Made by a program: the position numbers and the translations under genes. A model generated the notes under the pieces. That model was not told where the DNA came from and ran no database searches. It saw only the letters and a program-made list of their open reading frames with translations. This document shows, in pieces, positions 3,239 through 17,786 of a DNA stretch of 35,565 nt. The DNA is from a bacterium. GTDB lineage: Bacteria > Actinomycetota > Acidimicrobiia > Spongiisociales > Spongiisociaceae. Within the stretch, counting starts at the first letter, position 1; each line of letters begins with the position of its first letter. The DNA is taken from NCBI GenBank assembly GCA_028821235.1, contig JAPPGV010000100.1, forward strand, positions 1 through 35,565, in the 5' to 3' direction.

Positions 3239-4753
3239 ATGCGACCCAACATCCTCCTGGTCATGGCCGACCAGTTGGCGCCGCATTTCACGGGCGCCTA
3301 CGAGCATCCGCTGGTCCGCACCCCGGCCATGGACAGCCTGGTGGAGCGGGGCGCCCGCTTCGACGCCGCCTACTGCCCGTCGCCGTTGTGCGCGCCTTCC
3401 CGGTTCGCCATGATGACGGGACAACCGGTGTCGGCCATCGCCGCCTGGGACAACGGCGCCGAGTTGCCGGCGTCGGTACCGACCCTCGCCCACTACCTCC
3501 GGCTGTCCGGATACCGCACCACGCTGTCGGGGAAGATGCACTTCGTCGGTCCCGACCAGCTGCACGGCTTCGAGCGCCGCCTGACCACCGACATCTACCC
3601 GGCCGACTTCGCCTGGACACCCGAATGGGAGTCGTCAGACGACCGGATCGACAAGTGGTTCCACGGGATGGACAGCCTGGCGGAGGCCGGCCGGGCATCG
3701 GCGACCTACCAGATCGACTACGACGAGGAGGTGGGCTTCGCCGCCGTCAGGCACCTCTACGACATGGCCCGCGACGCCGACGAGCGGCCCTTCTTCCTGG
3801 TCGCCTCCTTCATCCACCCCCACGACCCCTACGTGGCCCGCCCCGAATGGTGGAACCTCTACGACCACGACCACATCGACCTGCCCGACGTTCCGCCCCA
3901 CGACTCTCTCGACTCGCACACCCGGCGCATCCGCCGGGCCGTCCAGGCCGAGAGCGTCGGCTACGACGAGGCCGGATGCCGCAACGCCCGTCATGCCTAC
4001 TACGCCAACACGAGCTACTTCGACTCGTGGGTGGGCGCCCTCCTCCAAGCCCTCACCGAGACGGGACAGGTCGACGACACGGTGGTCATCGTGACCAGCG
4101 ACCACGGCGACATGCTGGGCGACCGCGGCACATGGTTCAAGATGTCGTTCTTCGAGCGCTCGGCGCGGGTGCCGCTCATCATGGCGGGCCCCGACATCAC
4201 CAACCGCGCCGTCCCCAACGCCTGCTCGCTGCTGGATCTGCTGCCCACCCTTCTGGACATCGCCGCCGGTGGTGGACGCTGGCCGGAGTTGGCCGGAGCA
4301 CCGGCCGGTCGCAGCCTGTGGGAGAGCGCCGCCGGCGGACGGGACCCGGTCGACGAGACCACCTGCGAGTACATGGCCGAGATGACCACGCACCCGATGT
4401 TCATGATCCGCCGCGGGCGCCACAAGTACATCCACTGCGACACCGACCCTCCCCTCCTGTACGACATGGAGGCCGACCCGCTGGAGCGGATCAACCTGGC
4501 GGAGGATCCCGCCCATGCCGATCTCGCCTCGGGCTTCTCCGCCGAGGTGGCCGAGCGCTGGGACAGCGACGCCATCCGAGAGCGGGTGCTGGCCTCGCAA
4601 CGCACCCGGCAGCTGGTCCACGCCGCGATGGCGACCGGTGACCCGGTCTCCTGGGACTACGCACCGGCGCGGGACGCGGCCAACGAGTACGTCCGCAACC
4701 ACATGGACTGGAACGTGGTTGGCCCCCGCTACCTCCTCCCGGAGCTCGGCTGA
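3239..4753 (+). CDS. betC: Choline-sulfatase (arylsulfatase superfamily), first of tandem pair
   Basis: This 504-residue sulfatase should hydrolyse choline-O-sulfate to choline and sulfate. The N-terminus NILLVMADQLAPHFTGAYEH carries the metal-binding Asp. Cys51 in LCAPSR is the C-x-P-x-R site that is converted to formylglycine, so a formylglycine-generating enzyme is needed in trans; none is seen here. Choline-sulfatase signatures follow: LSGKMHFVGPDQLHGFERRL, FIHPHDPYVARPEWW, TSDHGDMLGDRG and MSFFERSARVPLIM. It has no signal peptide, so it is cytoplasmic and acts on imported substrate. It begins 35 bases after the polyketide synthase and its TGA overlaps the next ATG by one base, which suggests translational coupling. 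AGGAGG lies about 30 bases upstream of the ATG, farther than usual. The subfamily assignment rests on remembered BetC motifs; another sulfate ester cannot be excluded. Confidence 0.9.
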   Translation: MRPNILLVMADQLAPHFTGAYEHPLVRTPAMDSLVERGARFDAAYCPSPLCAPSRFAMMTGQPVSAIAAWDNGAELPASVPTLAHYLRLSGYRTTLSGKMHFVGPDQLHGFERRLTTDIYPADFAWTPEWESSDDRIDKWFHGMDSLAEAGRASATYQIDYDEEVGFAAVRHLYDMARDADERPFFLVASFIHPHDPYVARPEWWNLYDHDHIDLPDVPPHDSLDSHTRRIRRAVQAESVGYDEAGCRNARHAYYANTSYFDSWVGALLQALTETGQVDDTVVIVTSDHGDMLGDRGTWFKMSFFERSARVPLIMAGPDITNRAVPNACSLLDLLPTLLDIAAGGGRWPELAGAPAGRSLWESAAGGRDPVDETTCEYMAEMTTHPMFMIRRGRHKYIHCDTDPPLLYDMEADPLERINLAEDPAHADLASGFSAEVAERWDSDAIRERVLASQRTRQLVHAAMATGDPVSWDYAPARDAANEYVRNHMDWNVVGPRYLLPELG

Positions 4754-6282
4754 TGGCCGGCTCGTCCGCTCAGCCCAACATCCTGCTGGTGATGGCCGAC
4801 CAGCTGGCGCCGCAGTTCACCGGCGCCTACGAGCACCCGGTGGTCCGCACCCCGGCGATGGATGCCCTAGTGGAGCGAGGCGCCCGCTTCGACACCGCCT
4901 ACTGCCCCTACCCGCTGTGCGCCCCGTCCAGGTTCTCGATGCTGACGGGCCAACCGGCCACGGCGATCGGCGCGTGGGACAACGGCTCGGAACTGCCGGC
5001 GTCGGTACCGACCCTCGCCCATTACCTCCGGCTGGCCGGCTACCGCACCACGCTGTCGGGGAAGATGCACTTCGTGGGGCCCGACCAGCTCCACGGCTTC
5101 AACCAGCGCCTCACCACCGACGTGTACCCGGCCGACTTCGCCTGGACCGCCAACTGGGACGAGGCCGCTGACCGGATGGGCAAGTGGTGGCACAACATGA
5201 CCAGCCTGTCGGAGGCCGGCCAGGCACTGGCCACCTACCAGATCGACTACGACGAGGAGGTCGGATCGGCAGCCGTGCGCCATCTCTACGACACGGCCCG
5301 CGACACCGACGAGCGGCCCTTCTTCCTGACCGTCTCGTTCATCCACCCCCACGATCCCTACGTGGCCCGCCCCGAATGGTGGAACCTGTACGACCACGAC
5401 GAGATCGACCTGCCCGACGTGCCCCCGGAGGCGTCGCTGGACCCCCACACCGTCCGCATCCGCCACGGCATCGAAGCCGACACGGTCGGCTACACCGAGG
5501 ACCAGTGCCGCAACGCCCGCCGCGCCTACTACGCCAACACGAGCTACGTGGACGCCTGGCTGGGCAGGCTGGTGCGCGTCCTGGAGGAGACCGGGCAGCT
5601 GGACAACACGGTGGTCATCTTCACCAGCGACCACGGCGACATGCTGGGCGACCGCGGGGTGTGGTTCAAGATGTCGTTCTTCGAGCGCTCGGCGCGGGTG
5701 CCGCTCATCATGGCCGGCCCCGACATCACCAACCGCGCCGTCCCCAACGCCTGCTCGCTGCTGGACATGCTGCCCACCTTGCTCGACGTCGTCACCGGGG
5801 GCGGACCCTGGCCGGAGCCGGCAGAGGCACCGGCCGGACGCAGCCTTTGGGAGAGCGCTACGGGAGGCCGCGACCCGGTAGACGAGACCACCTCCGAGTA
5901 CACGGGCGTCATGACCTCCCACCCGATGTTCATGATCCGCCGCGGGCGCCACAAGTACATCCACTGCGACACCGACCCCGCCCAGCTGTACGACGTGGAG
6001 GCCGACCCGCTGGAGCGGGACAACCTGGCAGAGGATCCCGACCACGCCGATCTCGCCTCGGGCTTCGCCGCCGAGGTGCGAGAACGATGGGACAGCGACG
6101 CCATCCGGGAACAGGTACTCGCCTCGCAGCGAGCCCGCCGGGTCGTCCACGCCGCCATGGAGGTAGGCGATCTCCACTCGTGGGACTTCTCGCCGTCGAG
6201 CGACGCCACCAACCAGTACATCCGCAACCACATGGACTGGGCCGCCGCCGGCCCCCGCACCCGTTACCCGCCGGTCGCCTGA
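4753..6282 (+). CDS. betC: Choline-sulfatase paralogue, second of tandem pair
   Basis: This 509-residue sulfatase is very similar to its upstream neighbour along its whole length; by eye about four residues in five match, so it is a tandem duplicate. The catalytic Cys56 lies in PLCAPSR. The metal and substrate motifs NILLVMADQLAP, GKMHFVGPDQLHGF, FIHPHDPYVARPEWW and TSDHGDMLGDRG are all intact. Differences cluster in the middle and C-terminal parts (for example MGKWWHNMTSL in place of IDKWFHGMDSL, and a different C-terminus), so the copies may differ in substrate preference. It starts at the ATG inside TGATG, overlapping the upstream stop. It is followed 21 bases later by an FAD oxidoreductase. 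No signal peptide is visible. Expected role: release of sulfate and choline from choline-O-sulfate or a related ester. Confidence 0.9.
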   Translation: MAGSSAQPNILLVMADQLAPQFTGAYEHPVVRTPAMDALVERGARFDTAYCPYPLCAPSRFSMLTGQPATAIGAWDNGSELPASVPTLAHYLRLAGYRTTLSGKMHFVGPDQLHGFNQRLTTDVYPADFAWTANWDEAADRMGKWWHNMTSLSEAGQALATYQIDYDEEVGSAAVRHLYDTARDTDERPFFLTVSFIHPHDPYVARPEWWNLYDHDEIDLPDVPPEASLDPHTVRIRHGIEADTVGYTEDQCRNARRAYYANTSYVDAWLGRLVRVLEETGQLDNTVVIFTSDHGDMLGDRGVWFKMSFFERSARVPLIMAGPDITNRAVPNACSLLDMLPTLLDVVTGGGPWPEPAEAPAGRSLWESATGGRDPVDETTSEYTGVMTSHPMFMIRRGRHKYIHCDTDPAQLYDVEADPLERDNLAEDPDHADLASGFAAEVRERWDSDAIREQVLASQRARRVVHAAMEVGDLHSWDFSPSSDATNQYIRNHMDWAAAGPRTRYPPVA

Positions 6283-12036: not shown

Positions 12037-13224
12037 CTAGATCTGGTCCAGGCTTCTCTTCACGAAGGTCCGGTCGAGGGCGAAGGGTGAATCCTCCAGC
12101 CGGCCGGTGATCAGGTCGGCCAGGATGCGGCCTCCCGCCGGGGAGCACATGATGCCGTGGCCCGAGTATCCGGTGTTGACCCACAGTCCATCGATGGATG
12201 CCTGCCCGATCAGGGGGCGATGGTCCGGGCTCATCACGTACTGCCCGGAGTGGACCATCCAGGAGAGCTCTCCCGCCGTCCAGGCCTCGCCCCAGAAGGG
12301 GCTGATCCGGGCGGCGGCGTCCGGGCTGGAGGGATCCAGCACCCGGAACGCCATGGCGGAGCTGGGAGGGACGTCCTCAACGGGCTCCCTGCCCGGCCCT
12401 CGGGGCGCGGCGTCCAGGATCGCGGCGCCGGCCAGGGAGGGGCGCCAGTGGGTGCCGGTGTCGTCATCGATGGTCATGGGAGCGTCAGGCGGGACCCGCG
12501 CCAGGTCGGGCACCACCACCTTGTGGCGGGGCTTGACCTCCAGCGGCAACTCCACCCCGAGGAGGCCGGCCAGCTGGGCGGTGAAGGGCCCGGCGGCGAT
12601 CACCACCTGCTCGGCCCGGATGTGGCCGCTCTCCGTACCCACGTCGAAGCCTCCCGAGGGGAGTTCCCGGAGCGATACCACCCGGCACGAGACGTGGAGG
12701 GGGGCGCCCGACGCCCGTAGCAGCCCCAGGGTCAGCTCCCTCGGGTCGGCAAAGCCGTCGTCCGCGCGGTAGCGGGCGCTGACCACTTCAGGGCTCAGGT
12801 AGGGGAACCTGCGCCGGGCCTCGTCCCCGGTCAGGATCTCGATGTCGGTCTGCCCCCAGGAGTGCTGGCGGGCCACCAGCCGGCGCTGCATCGCAGCCTT
12901 GTCCGGGGATGTGGTCGCCCAGAGGTACCCCGGCTGCCTGACCGCCAGCCCCGCCCCGTCCTGGCCGGTGATCTCGGCGAAGTTCAGGATCAGGTCGACC
13001 GTCTCGCGCACCAACTCGGTCTCCTCCCGGTTGTCGAACTGCAGCCGGAAGGCACCGGTGGAAGCCGGGGTGGTGAGCGAGGCGGCAACCGGCCGGGCTT
13101 CCAGCACCACCGGCGACAGCCCGGCCCGGGCAGCCCAGAACGCCGTGGACGCACCCACTATCCCGGCGCCGATGATCACCAACTCCGCGCCGGCCGGAAG
13201 GCCCCTATCAACCTCGGACACCAT
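12037..13224 (-). CDS. FAD-dependent oxidoreductase, DAO family (sarcosine/dimethylglycine oxidase-like)
   Basis: This is a second DAO-family flavoprotein, of 395 residues. The nucleotide-binding motif is LVIIGAGIVGASTAFWAARA with VVLEARP behind it. The substrate-domain motif TTPASTGAFRLQFDNREE matches the position of the GGFRxQF motif in its paralogue at 6304-7413, and the C-terminal FAD loop is NTGYSGHGIMCSPAGG. It is clearly a diverged relative of that gene rather than a recent copy. It starts at the ATG at 13224; no strong ribosome-binding site is visible. It stands alone between the selenoprotein (convergent) and the methyltransferase operon. The likely reaction is oxidative demethylation or deamination of an N-substituted amino acid; the substrate is unknown. 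Confidence 0.85.
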   Translation of the reverse strand: MVSEVDRGLPAGAELVIIGAGIVGASTAFWAARAGLSPVVLEARPVAASLTTPASTGAFRLQFDNREETELVRETVDLILNFAEITGQDGAGLAVRQPGYLWATTSPDKAAMQRRLVARQHSWGQTDIEILTGDEARRRFPYLSPEVVSARYRADDGFADPRELTLGLLRASGAPLHVSCRVVSLRELPSGGFDVGTESGHIRAEQVVIAAGPFTAQLAGLLGVELPLEVKPRHKVVVPDLARVPPDAPMTIDDDTGTHWRPSLAGAAILDAAPRGPGREPVEDVPPSSAMAFRVLDPSSPDAAARISPFWGEAWTAGELSWMVHSGQYVMSPDHRPLIGQASIDGLWVNTGYSGHGIMCSPAGGRILADLITGRLEDSPFALDRTFVKRSLDQI

Positions 13225-13293: not shown

Positions 13294-14382
13294 CTATTCC
13301 GGTTTGCGAGCGTGGATGAAGTACATCGGCGTGAAGATGCCGAGCCGGCCCGCCTCGACCATGGCCATCGCGCAGAGGTTCAGAGTCTCCGCCACCCGAA
13401 CGGATCCCCTCGGCGCGATGCGGAGGGCCTCGAGCAGCCTGAGCGTTTTATGGGTGACCGAGCGTCCGATCCTCGAACTCCGGAAACTCGCCAGGGAGAA
13501 CCCCGAACCGGCCAGCGGTTGGTACCAGGGGATCGAAGGACCGGACTGAGCCGAGAGATCCCTTGTCTCCAGTACCTCGAACCCCACCGTCCGGAGCGCG
13601 TCGTTGACCGTTTGCTCTTCGTCGATCAAGAGCAGGCCGCCTCCCAGCTGAAGGTCCGCCTTGACCTTGAGATGGTGGGGATCTTCAGCGTCGAAACGTT
13701 CGGTCATGCAGTACTCGTAAGCGGCGAAGCACGCCCCCGGCTTCAGCAAGCGGAACACCTCGCCGTAGATGCCGACCTTGTCCGGTGCGTGGCAGGTCGC
13801 CTCAATGGAGTAGACCGCGTCGAAGGAGCCGTCCGGAGCGTCCACGTGATGAAAGTCGCAGTGCATGAACTCGGCCAGGTGCGTCAGATCCGCCTCCTCC
13901 GCGTACTTCCGGGCGTGTTCGAGCTGGTAGGCGTTGCTGTTCACGCCTACGATCCGGGCGCCGGAGAACCGGGCGATCTCCAGCAGCGGTCCCCCGACGC
14001 CGCAGCCGAGGTCGGCCACGACCATCCCGGGCGCTAGCTCGAGCTTGTGGGCCAGGAAGTGCTCGTGGCGGACGAGCGAGGCCTTGAAGCTCTCCCCGCG
14101 GACACGAGGGGCGAAATGGAACGACCTACCCCATCCGAACTCGTAGAAGTCCGTGGCCAAGTCGTAGTAGAGATTGCTGATCTCCTTGTAGGCGCTCGCC
14201 TCGTCCCGCTTGTCGCGCCTGGTCGTCCAGCGTCTCTCGTACTCGCGGATGGCCTGAGCGATACCGGTAGCGCTGCCCTTCAGAGAGTTGGAAAGCTTGA
14301 ACGGCAACGGTTCTCCCCCGCGTGGCTTATGACGGACGCCACGCCAGGCACCGTACGAGGGGTCTGCGCCGATGTCAACCAT
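13294..14382 (-). CDS. Sterol C-24 methyltransferase homologue (SMT/ERG6-like)
   Basis: This 362-residue SAM-dependent methyltransferase matches eukaryotic sterol 24-C-methyltransferases along its whole length. The sterol-binding motif YYDLATDFYEFGWGRSFHFA is present. Next come the SAM motif VADLGCGVGGPLLEIARFS and the SMT-specific YSIEATCHAPDKVGIYGEVF and LKPGACFAAYEYCMTE. The C-terminal sterol MT domain follows, with IAPRGSVRVAE and the ending IFTPMYFIHARKPE, close to plant SMTs. It would add a methyl group to a C-24 double bond of a sterol side chain. No squalene epoxidase or oxidosqualene cyclase is in the window, so the substrate may be host-derived or made elsewhere. I chose the ATG at 14382, 16 bases after DUF1272. 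An in-frame GTG at 14433 would overlap that gene. Confidence 0.85.
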   Translation of the reverse strand: MVDIGADPSYGAWRGVRHKPRGGEPLPFKLSNSLKGSATGIAQAIREYERRWTTRRDKRDEASAYKEISNLYYDLATDFYEFGWGRSFHFAPRVRGESFKASLVRHEHFLAHKLELAPGMVVADLGCGVGGPLLEIARFSGARIVGVNSNAYQLEHARKYAEEADLTHLAEFMHCDFHHVDAPDGSFDAVYSIEATCHAPDKVGIYGEVFRLLKPGACFAAYEYCMTERFDAEDPHHLKVKADLQLGGGLLLIDEEQTVNDALRTVGFEVLETRDLSAQSGPSIPWYQPLAGSGFSLASFRSSRIGRSVTHKTLRLLEALRIAPRGSVRVAETLNLCAMAMVEAGRLGIFTPMYFIHARKPE

Positions 14383-14398
14383 CGACCGCAGAGCGGCG

Positions 14399-14575
14399 CT
14401 AGACCGCCCGGCGAGGCCGCGGGACCAGTTCACCCCCGCAGTTCGGGCAGACGTGGCTCATCCCGCCGGCACATTTGGGACAGAAGGTGCACTCGTACGA
14501 GCAGATGAGCGCCGCTGCATCTCCGGCAAGCGGGGCGTCGCAGCGCTCGCAACGGGCGCGCATCTCGAGCGCCAT
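14399..14575 (-). CDS. DUF1272 small zinc-ribbon-like protein
   Basis: This 58-residue protein is missed by long-ORF criteria. It begins MALEMRARCERCDAPL, continues with ICSYECTFCPKCA and ends with CPNCGGELVPRPRRAV. The four CxxC-type pairs (Cys9/12, 25/29, 32/35, 43/46) and the ending CPNCGGELV-RPRR are the DUF1272 pattern, probably binding zinc. GGAGGAG lies eight bases upstream of the ATG at 14575. It sits between the rhodanese gene (24 bases upstream) and the sterol methyltransferase (16 bases downstream), so the three are probably co-transcribed. The family has no established function. Confidence 0.85.
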   Translation of the reverse strand: MALEMRARCERCDAPLAGDAAALICSYECTFCPKCAGGMSHVCPNCGGELVPRPRRAV

Positions 14576-14599: not shown

Positions 14600-14995
14600 T
14601 CAGCAGCCGCAGACGACTTTGCGGCCCGACTGGGCGTTGTCGCCCTCGGTGGGGTAGCCGTCTCGCTTCCACCAGTCGAGACCGCCGATCAGTTCCCGTA
14701 CCTCGAAGCCCAGCATGAGCAGCTTCAGCGCGGTCTTGGTGGAGGCGTTGCAACCGATCCCGTCGCAATAGCAGACGTAGGTCCGTGACCGGTCCAGCGA
14801 GGCCGTCGACTCGGCGTCGATACCCCGGTGCGGCAGGTTCATCGCGCCCGGTATGTGCTCCCGGACGTAGGCCTCGGCGGAGCGGCCGTCGACCACGACC
14901 AACGGCTCGCCGTTGCCCAGCGCCTCGTGGACGTCCCACGAGTCCATCTCGAAGGCGAGCTTGCTCTTGTAATGGTTCAACTGGTCGGTGCTCAT
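14600..14995 (-). CDS. Rhodanese-like domain protein
   Basis: This 131-residue single-domain rhodanese begins MSTDQLNHYKSKLAFEMDSW and has VVDGRSAEAYVREHIPGAMN (the conserved D-R-S...HIPGA element). The active-site loop is YVCYCDGIGCNASTKTALKL. The loop contains Cys residues for persulphide transfer, and the C-terminus has another pair in VVCGC. Rhodaneses move sulphane sulphur (or selenium in some relatives) between small molecules and proteins. I prefer the ATG at 14995, with GAGGAA just upstream; in-frame starts at 15013 and 15157 are less likely because they lack a binding site or overlap the cyclophilin gene. It is first in the operon with DUF1272 and the sterol methyltransferase. Confidence 0.82.
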   Translation of the reverse strand: MSTDQLNHYKSKLAFEMDSWDVHEALGNGEPLVVVDGRSAEAYVREHIPGAMNLPHRGIDAESTASLDRSRTYVCYCDGIGCNASTKTALKLLMLGFEVRELIGGLDWWKRDGYPTEGDNAQSGRKVVCGC

Positions 14996-15141
14996 CAGGT
15001 TCCTCGTGCTCATCCGACCAGGCACCATAGACCCCCGCTCGCACAATGCCCAACGCCATGGCCGGCGGGCCGGGCCAGCGATCAGCACGGTTAGGGTTAC
15101 CCGGTCCCTACGCCCCAGCCACCGACACTCGAGGAGTCCAA

Positions 15142-15702
15142 GTGACCGACGTACCATGCCCCGCGGCCGACGGGTCCAGCCCCGCCCGCCGCCAGTTCCC
15201 GAAGCCGCCCCCGATGTGCATCGACCCCGCCAAGTCCTACACCGCGGTGATGGACACGTCGATGGGGTCGATCACCATCGCCCTCGATGCCGCCGCCGCC
15301 CCCCTTACGGTGAACAACTTCGTGGTGCTGGCCCGCTACCACTACTACGAAGGCGTGATCTTCCACAGAATCATCGAGGGCTTCGTCTGCCAGGGCGGCG
15401 ACCCCACCGGCTCGGGTCGGGGCGGCCCCGGCTACCGCTTCGCCGACGAACTGCCGCAGCCCGGCAGCTACGAGCTGGGTTCGCTGGCCATGGCCAACGC
15501 GGGGCCCGACACCAACGGCAGCCAGTTCTTCATCATCAGTGGCTCCGACGGCACCCGCCTGCCACCCCACTACTCGCTGTTCGGCAAGGTGACCGACGGC
15601 CTGGACGTGGTGGACGCCATGCAGAGGGTGCCGACCGCCCGCAACGACCGCCCGCTCACCCCTGTCACCATCAACTCGGTTACGATCACAGAGTCCGACT
15701 GA
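15142..15702 (+). CDS. Peptidyl-prolyl cis-trans isomerase, cyclophilin type
   Basis: This 186-residue cyclophilin follows a short proline-rich N-terminus. The motifs YYEGVIFHRIIEGFVCQGGD, GGPGYRFADEL, SLAMANAGPDTNGSQFFI and HYSLFGKVTDGLDVVDAM are the cyclophilin core. The catalytic Arg is in FHRII, and the Gln and Phe of the active site are in SQFFI. It should speed folding by isomerising X-Pro bonds. It has no signal peptide or membrane segment, so it is cytoplasmic. I chose the GTG at 15142 because GAGGAG lies at 15131-15136, five bases upstream; the ATG at 15046 is in frame but unsupported. It is divergent from the rhodanese operon. Confidence 0.92.
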   Translation: MTDVPCPAADGSSPARRQFPKPPPMCIDPAKSYTAVMDTSMGSITIALDAAAAPLTVNNFVVLARYHYYEGVIFHRIIEGFVCQGGDPTGSGRGGPGYRFADELPQPGSYELGSLAMANAGPDTNGSQFFIISGSDGTRLPPHYSLFGKVTDGLDVVDAMQRVPTARNDRPLTPVTINSVTITESD

Positions 15703-15761: not shown

Positions 15762-17786
15762 CTAACCACTGGCCACCGGATCGAATAGTTGGTCGAGAGC
15801 CCGCACCACGAAGGTGGCCATCTCGGCCCGGGACACGGGCCGGTCGGGGCAGAACCGCAGCGGATCGGTGGAGCACCCCGCGGTGATGTCGGCCGCGGCC
15901 AGGGCATCAATGTCGGCCTCGTGGGAGCCCCCGGTATCCGTGAAACCGGCCGACCCGGCGCGTTCCAGTTCGAACGCCCTCACCAGGAACGTGGCCATCT
16001 GGCCCCGAGAGACGGCCGAGTCCGGGCAGAACCGCGGCGGATCGGCGCCGCATCCCTTGGTCACCTCGAGTTCGGCGAGACGCTCCACATAGCCCGCCCA
16101 CCATTCACCGGGATCCACATCTTCGAACCGCGTCACGGCATTGGAAGGCTCGAAACCCGGGTCGAGGACCCGGACCATCCACACCGCCATGGTCGAGCGC
16201 TGGAGGGGCAGCCCGGGGCAGAAGAGCCGCGCGCCGCACTCGGTGCCGTCCAGGACGCCCGCCTCCGCCAACCGGTCGATCGAAGCCTCGAAGACACTGC
16301 CGTCATCGTCTTCGAAGCTGCCCGACCCGGCGGGTTGTCCAGGTTCCTCAGGGTCGTCGGCCGGCGGAGGGGCCACGCCGTCGATGGCCGTGATGTTGGA
16401 GGACTTGAGGCCCAGCTTGGTCCGGAAGTCGGCCCCGGCGACCGTTACCGACACAGGGTCGCCGCCGCGGACACCCCGGAACAGGACCCGCGCCGGGGAG
16501 GACAGGGACTCCCGGTCGACCAGGACCGCCTCGGTGACGTCGTCCCATCCCAGCCAGGTGGCCAGAGAGGCGGCGCTCACCCGCTCCTCCCATGACGCGT
16601 TCGGGTTGCCTACGGCCGGGTCCACGTCCCACGGGTCCGCGACCGGTCTCAGGTAGGGCCACTCCGTTCCCGGCGTCCTGCCGTCCCACTCGGTGAAGAA
16701 CCCGTACACGTTGGTGCGGGTGATCCCGCCGGATGAGGCGGAGAAGAACGTCTGGACGATCCCCGCCTTCGTGTACCTCTCCCAGCCGGCGCCGAAGTAG
16801 GTGAGCACCCGGTCCCTGGTGCTCACCACACCGTCGAGCCAGGGCTGCCCGTTCGAGCGGGTCTCCTTGGCCCAGCCTATGTAGTTGATGTCCCGCCAGC
16901 TGTCGTAGAGATGGCACCAGCAGCTGTCCTTGCGGGCGGCGTTGATTCCCGGATCCTCGTCGGGGTCGGCGGGGCGCGGCCCGGTCTCCCACAGGAAGAA
17001 CTTGTAGGCCGCGTAGGAGCGGGACGTCACGGCCTGGGCCTCGTTCACCCCCGGCGCCGACCAATGGTCCAGCACCTCGGCAACGCCGCGGAGGTAGTCC
17101 TCGAGCCCGATCGCCAGGACCACGTGGAACCCCACCTCCACGGGGTCGTCCCGTATCTTCAGCTCCCCGTGCCGGTACTCGCAGACCTCGTTGGTGCGGG
17201 ATGCGCACAGCTTGGCCCTGCTCTCACCGTGACGGAGCCGCACCCCGGCCGCGTCGGGCCACGAGATGGACGCCCGGCAGCTACCGGCCGTTCCCTGGAG
17301 CGCGCCACCGTGGAAGAAGCCGCACTGGCCGCGGGCGATGCGGCGGAACTCCCACCGCTCCCCCGACTACGGGTGCTGTGGCTTCGGGCACGGACCCGCG
17401 CCGTCGTCCGCCAGGCACAGATCCAGGGGACCTCCCACGGCGGTGAACTCCAGCAGCGTGATCTGGGAGCCCAGATTGATCCACAGCGGGTTGTCGAGCG
17501 TGTACAGCAGGTCGTTGGGCAGGGCGAGGTCCCGCATCGTCGCCGGTGTGGAGCCGGGGAAGTAGTAGGCGGCGATGTCCTCACCCGGCTTGGCCGGGTC
17601 GGCGAGGGCCTGCCCCAAAGCGCCCCACTGGCCCATGCCCACACCGTGGCCCCATCCCGCACCCTCGAAATCGAACCCCGGCGTGTGGTGGGCCTCTGCC
17701 CCGACAGCCGGGAGCAGTCCCACCAGAAGCAGCACGACCAGCACTCTCCGGATCACCCGACGAGTGTAGGAGTGCTCCTTCAGCAA
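15762..17786 (-). pseudogene. SpoIID/LytB-domain protein with S-layer-like repeats, interrupted by in-frame TAG
   Basis: Two open frames in the same phase (17786-17367 and downstream to 15762) make one protein broken by a TAG at 17369-17367. The first part has a signal peptide (VIRRVLVVLLLVGLLPAVGA) and the SpoIID motif GWGHGVGMGQWGALGQALA with YYFPGSTP. After the TAG the protein reads on without further stops (SGERWEFRRIARGQCGFFHG). It then shows the SpoIID core LEDYLRGVAEV, QAVTSRSYAAYKF and TFFSASSGGITR. The C-terminus has three S-layer-like repeats (ADITAGCSTDPLRFCPDRP, SRAEMATFVVRAL). SpoIID/LytB proteins act on peptidoglycan at the cell surface. A single base change (CAG to TAG) or a sequencing error would explain the break. 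The start is uncertain: TTG at 17786 or GTG at 17756. The second half may be expressed from an internal start. Confidence 0.82.

Follow-up and report, generated by a model that had tools for sequence, protein, structure and literature searches.

A predicted sterol C-24 methyltransferase in Acidimicrobiia genomes with late sterol genes and no detected ring-forming genes

The gene SMT-A, carried by a 35,565-nucleotide stretch of DNA (contig JAPPGV010000100.1 of assembly GCA_028821235.1, here called the window) from a bacterium of the order Spongiisociales, was assigned by profile, motifs and phylogeny to the SMT/Erg6-type sterol C-24 methyltransferases (SMTs). The bacterium belongs to a group known mainly from marine sponges. 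We think it likely that its product alkylates C-24 of delta-24 sterols acquired from a sponge host, the sponge's diet or co-resident, sterol-making symbionts, since no squalene epoxidase or cyclase was detected in the genome. By the chemistry expected of the family, the methyl group of S-adenosylmethionine (SAM) would be moved electrophilically to the delta-24 double bond in the side chain of the sterol, the products being 24-methylene or 24-methyl sterols or sterols alkylated further, and a second methyltransferase (SMT-B) and reductases of the ERG4/ERG24 type would act on the same imported pool. The analysis shows that the protein belongs to the family, has intact motifs and is under purifying selection, and it establishes the inventory of pathway genes; from these we infer activity, substrate, uptake, export and benefit to the host.

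Family assignment and gene start

The Sterol_MT_C profile (PF08498) matched SMT-A with 85.2 bits against a cut-off of 21.7 (E 3.4e-24) at residues 316-379 of a 379-residue open reading frame (ORF), behind a class I SAM-dependent methyltransferase domain (Methyltransf_11, 66.5 bits), and gave zero matches in 14 control genomes. The signature regions expected of SMTs (region I, YEYGWG..FHF; region II, IEATCHAP; the LGxG region; PWYxPL; and IFTPM..ARKP) were all present, reading YEFGWGRSFHF, IEATCHAP, LGGG, PWYQPL and IFTPMYFIHARKPE. Alignment-wide identity was 41% to yeast Erg6, 47% to Arabidopsis SMT1 and 37% to Arabidopsis SMT2, these references, also used for motifs and tree, being sequences entered by hand and checked for family by Pfam.

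In an IQ-TREE phylogeny of 92 rows, the SMTs, with SMT-A among them, were split by a 100/100 branch from an outgroup of four methyltransferases from the PDB, including MitM, a RebM-like enzyme and a glucose O-methyltransferase. The first-pass annotation, which had proposed the sterol C-24 class and is backed in this by profile, end-to-end motifs and tree, had also envisaged a contrary placement among tocopherol, phosphoethanolamine or glycine N-methyltransferases; no placement among the four outgroup enzymes was recovered, in a tree that holds neither a tocopherol methyltransferase nor a phosphoethanolamine methyltransferase (PEAMT). Copies within the genus and family gave dN/dS values of 0.25-0.46 for SMT-A and 0.19-0.36 for SMT-B, and are under purifying selection.

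The three peptides first quoted for the gene were all found in the longest ORF that covers it (13294-14433, minus strand, GTG start). The coordinates 13294-14382 had been given for it without a strand; they were about right, the gene lying on the minus strand and likely beginning at the start codon listed in Table 1. Translation of the same interval on the plus strand gave noise and not a coherent protein. The start was placed at a TTG because a Shine-Dalgarno-like element, GGGGGAG, precedes this codon and because the alignment places the initial M or V of homologues at this position; the predicted protein is likely the 337-residue form.

Ring-forming, late and squalene genes

The presence or absence of genes was judged from profile searches of genomes. 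The genome of the window is a metagenome-assembled genome (MAG) estimated as 96.9% complete, and completeness is 84-97% for the order's 14 SMT-carrying genomes. The first-pass annotation had called for a genome search for squalene epoxidase and oxidosqualene cyclase (OSC), and neither was found. The epoxidase family PF08491 was found neither in this genome nor in the order's 13 other genomes with an SMT; the cyclase family PF13243 was not found in this genome, and the cyclase family PF13249 was not found in 19 genomes that cover all 14 carriers. These searches can detect the genes, since the same searches found both in other SMT carriers: the epoxidase in 16 of the 50 genomes of the same search, and a cyclase in 40 of 50 SMT carriers from across phyla. 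With NCBIfam models, four SMT carriers of Acidimicrobiia or Chloroflexota scored above the cut-off for hopene cyclase (TIGR01507), and oxidosqualene cyclase (TIGR03463) was the best match in four other carriers, at 715-737 bits and so under its cut-off of 851. A cyclase that is OSC-like by score class occurred in about one of 30 genomes whose SMT falls in the SMT-A clade, namely G103, which has an epoxidase too; this clade is therefore largely decoupled from sterol ring formation.

Late sterol genes were present. Two full-length proteins of the ERG4/ERG24 family are encoded in the genome, on contigs C76 (118.5 bits) and C19 (108.8 bits), and the best solved-structure match of the former was the delta-14 sterol reductase 4quv (E 1.6e-31). 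The family was above cut-off in 13 of the 14 SMT-carrying members of the order versus none of the three SMT-less members tested. The first-pass suggestion that the enzyme may alter host sterols is strengthened by these two reductases.

Squalene synthesis is likely in this genome as well, since HpnC and HpnE (above their NCBIfam cut-offs) and HpnD (just below) are encoded in one cluster on contig C68. These genes give room for a different reading, in which the substrate of the genus's SMT-family enzymes would be squalene or some other linear triterpene from the HpnC/D/E route, as for the triterpene methyltransferases of the alga Botryococcus braunii; to our knowledge, such methylation is known from Botryococcus only. 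The joint presence of HpnC, HpnD and HpnE with no cyclase found would fit it, as would the occurrence of a strong HpnCD pair in exactly 15 of the 99 members of the order, 14 of them with an SMT, and of an SQS_PSY gene in all 50 cross-phylum SMT carriers tested. However, the same-genus genome G009 keeps the HpnCD pair and has neither an SMT nor ERG4/ERG24, which ties the SMT to a sterol-specific enzyme and not to squalene; moreover, the relatives of SMT-A adjoin sterol biosynthesis genes in other genomes and its motifs agree with the sterol enzymes. We regard squalene methylation as improbable.

Sterol synthesis de novo, with an epoxidase or cyclase that the assembly lacks or that has diverged beyond detection, would be in keeping with the presence of squalene synthesis and late sterol genes and with the related Acidimicrobiia genome G103, which has both ring-forming enzymes beside its SMT-A copy. 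Its probability is small, because both enzymes went undetected in 14 of 14 SMT-carrying genomes of the order. That SMT-A is another small-molecule methyltransferase (of the tocopherol, phosphoethanolamine or glycine type) that merely resembles an SMT is very improbable: solved structures of MitM, sarcosine/dimethylglycine methyltransferase and PEAMT do match it (E about 1e-10 to 1e-20), but mainly in the SAM core, and the protein has PF08498, the sterol-specific regions and the split from the outgroups described above.

Several points weigh against alkylation of acquired sterols, the reading that we prefer. The MAG is in 162 contigs, and a non-homologous cyclase or epoxidase could be encoded in it. 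The association between ERG4/ERG24 and SMT comes from few, related genomes, and one SMT carrier (G093) has only a sub-threshold ERG4/ERG24 match. The squalene genes track the SMT closely, and the associations of SMT with ERG4/ERG24 and with HpnCD may in part reflect common descent. SMT-A has Ala where the yeast enzyme has D152, and both enzyme activity and sterol uptake are predictions.

Relatives, carriers and neighbouring genes

SMT-A fell among 26 rows from Acidimicrobiia and Chloroflexota that form a clade (100/100). This clade was nested in one of 41 rows (100/99), whose further members come from Alphaproteobacteria, Nitrospinota, Binatota and Nitrospirota, with a single copy from a gammaproteobacterium. 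Identity was 60-84% in the clade as it spans Acidimicrobiia, Chloroflexota, Alphaproteobacteria, Nitrospinota and Binatota. Eukaryotic SMTs fell outside the SMT-A clade, and a recent capture of the gene from a eukaryote is thus unsupported. Approximately unbiased (AU) tests did not reject a single clade for the copies of the order (p 0.29) or for all Acidimicrobiia copies (p 0.149), and the tree conflict is only suggestive of SMT transfer across phyla into the order.

The relatives come from Acidimicrobiia, SAR202/Dehalococcoidia and others, mostly as MAGs. Their isolate prefixes RHO, COS, IRC and CO may stand for the sponge hosts Rhopaloeides, Coscinoderma, Ircinia and Cliona, which are listed in PMC8163846, and judging from these prefixes nearly all are apparently MAGs of sponge symbionts. 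SMTs were carried by 14 of the 99 genomes of the order: nine of ten in the genus of the window, one in another genus of its family and four in a genus of another family. Most members of the genus have two copies, SMT-A and SMT-B, the latter grouping apart from SMT-A with copies from Nitrospira, Nitrospinota and Gammaproteobacteria (100/100).

In one same-genus genome, the SMT-A copy has an in-frame TGA at a Cys codon conserved in relatives (EYCMTERF to EY*MTERF; Table 1), which would be a nonsense mutation or a sequencing error and, less likely, selenocysteine. Additionally, adjoining tandem SMT copies were seen at other loci, two each in L044, L046, L048 and L051 and three in L053; these possibly serve successive alkylations.

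As first described, a rhodanese gene and a DUF1272 gene lie beside SMT-A, both upstream and co-directional, and no sterol-ring gene was seen near it in the window. The linkage to rhodanese and DUF1272 says little about function. The downstream oxidoreductase gene was also found near SMT-A in seven of seven same-genus loci fetched (L027, L028, L029, L030, L063, L066 and L106), and contamination of the MAG as the source of SMT-A was rejected on this ground. In other phyla, the neighbours of related SMTs were OSC, SdmA, ERG24, cytochrome P450 and MMPL proteins.

Fusions were also observed among symbiont genomes. In three symbiont MAGs with an SMT, epoxidase and OSC share one open frame, and judging from coordinates several more genomes may have this fusion, with open frames of about 1130-1220 residues. 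Fusions of GPP34 (Golgi phosphoprotein 3) to cytochrome P450 are encoded no more than a few kb from SMTs in symbionts with no detected cyclase. Elsewhere in the window, a protein with S-layer homology (SLH) repeats seems to be spread over two ORFs, which a frameshift may have separated, and two similar genes stand in tandem.

Table 1. Features of the window and of other contigs and loci (positions without a prefix refer to the window).
Feature	Position	Strand	Remarks
SMT-A, predicted sterol C-24 methyltransferase, 337 aa	13294-14307	minus	probable TTG start at 14307
FAD-dependent oxidoreductase (DAO family)	12037-13224	minus	PF01266, 179.5 bits; downstream of SMT-A
DUF1272 protein, 58 aa	14399-14575	minus	PF06906, 89.5 bits
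Rhodanese-domain protein	14600-15157	minus	PF00581, 56.5 bits
SLH-repeat protein, also with SpoIID-like motifs	15762-17786	minus	motifs by eye
Two tandem genes, about 505 aa each	3239-6279	plus	sulfatase-like by eye
SMT-B, same genome	C57:4630-5787		about 38-42% identical to SMT-A, varying with alignment
SMT-A copy with in-frame TGA	L027:9827-11080	plus	same gene as in L005
Epoxidase-OSC open frame	L131:2-2821	plus	
Epoxidase-OSC open frame	L132:833-3700	minus	
Epoxidase-OSC open frame	L133:250-3498	minus	
GPP34-P450 fusion	L104:4522-6525	plus	
GPP34-P450 fusion	L061:12266-14308	plus	
GPP34-P450 fusion	L054:7635-9803	plus	

Significance and comparison with known systems

C-24 alkylated steranes are taken as fossil traces of sponges and algae. 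Should sterols in sponges also be alkylated by bacteria that do not make them, neither the sponge genome nor a search for cyclases would predict which organism sets the side-chain pattern. Sterol modification by symbionts could be studied in this genus, whose gene set is defined and in which G009 is a naturally SMT-less member. A wider and rather doubtful idea is that sterol synthesis is split within the sponge microbiome: some symbionts would make the ring with epoxidase and cyclase, and this genus would supply squalene, late steps on received sterols (C-24 alkylation and double-bond reduction) or both, or else its SMTs would methylate squalene.

Bacterial SMTs, including those of sponge symbionts, are already known (PMC10070321, PMC9531527). 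The new part is the genus-wide gene set of late steps without ring formation; for this combination (SMTs of two clades together with reductases and squalene synthesis, and no epoxidase or cyclase) no description was found in the open-licence literature.

Brown et al. (2023) found bacterial SMTs, those of sponge symbionts included, to be active in vitro, among them one from Chlamydiae whose MAG lacks other sterol genes (PMC10070321). SMT-A resembles that set as an Erg6-type protein of apparently sponge-associated bacteria; the carriers of this genus differ in pairing two SMT clades with ERG4/ERG24-type reductases while cyclase and epoxidase were not found. MAGs of Ircinia symbionts are enriched in SMT1/ERG6, ERG24 and squalene synthase, and ring-gene clusters have been reported in many classes including Acidimicrobiia, horizontal transfer of these clusters being argued there (PMC9531527). 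The gene families are the same and likewise span several phyla, Acidimicrobiia among them, but the main clusters described there hold ERG24-CYP51-ERG7, and ERG7 was not found here. All signature regions are shared with Arabidopsis SMT1 and yeast Erg6, although neither these nor other eukaryotic sequences in the tree branch from within the SMT-A clade. Finally, Stmp1 (CBU1206) of Coxiella is an orphan, eukaryote-like sterol reductase (PMC8787468). It is likewise an orphan sterol-modifying enzyme of a host-associated bacterium without the pathway, but it is a reductase of an intracellular pathogen and not a methyltransferase. With the Chlamydiae SMT and the Coxiella sterol reductases as two precedents, an orphan-enzyme arrangement for SMT-A is credible.
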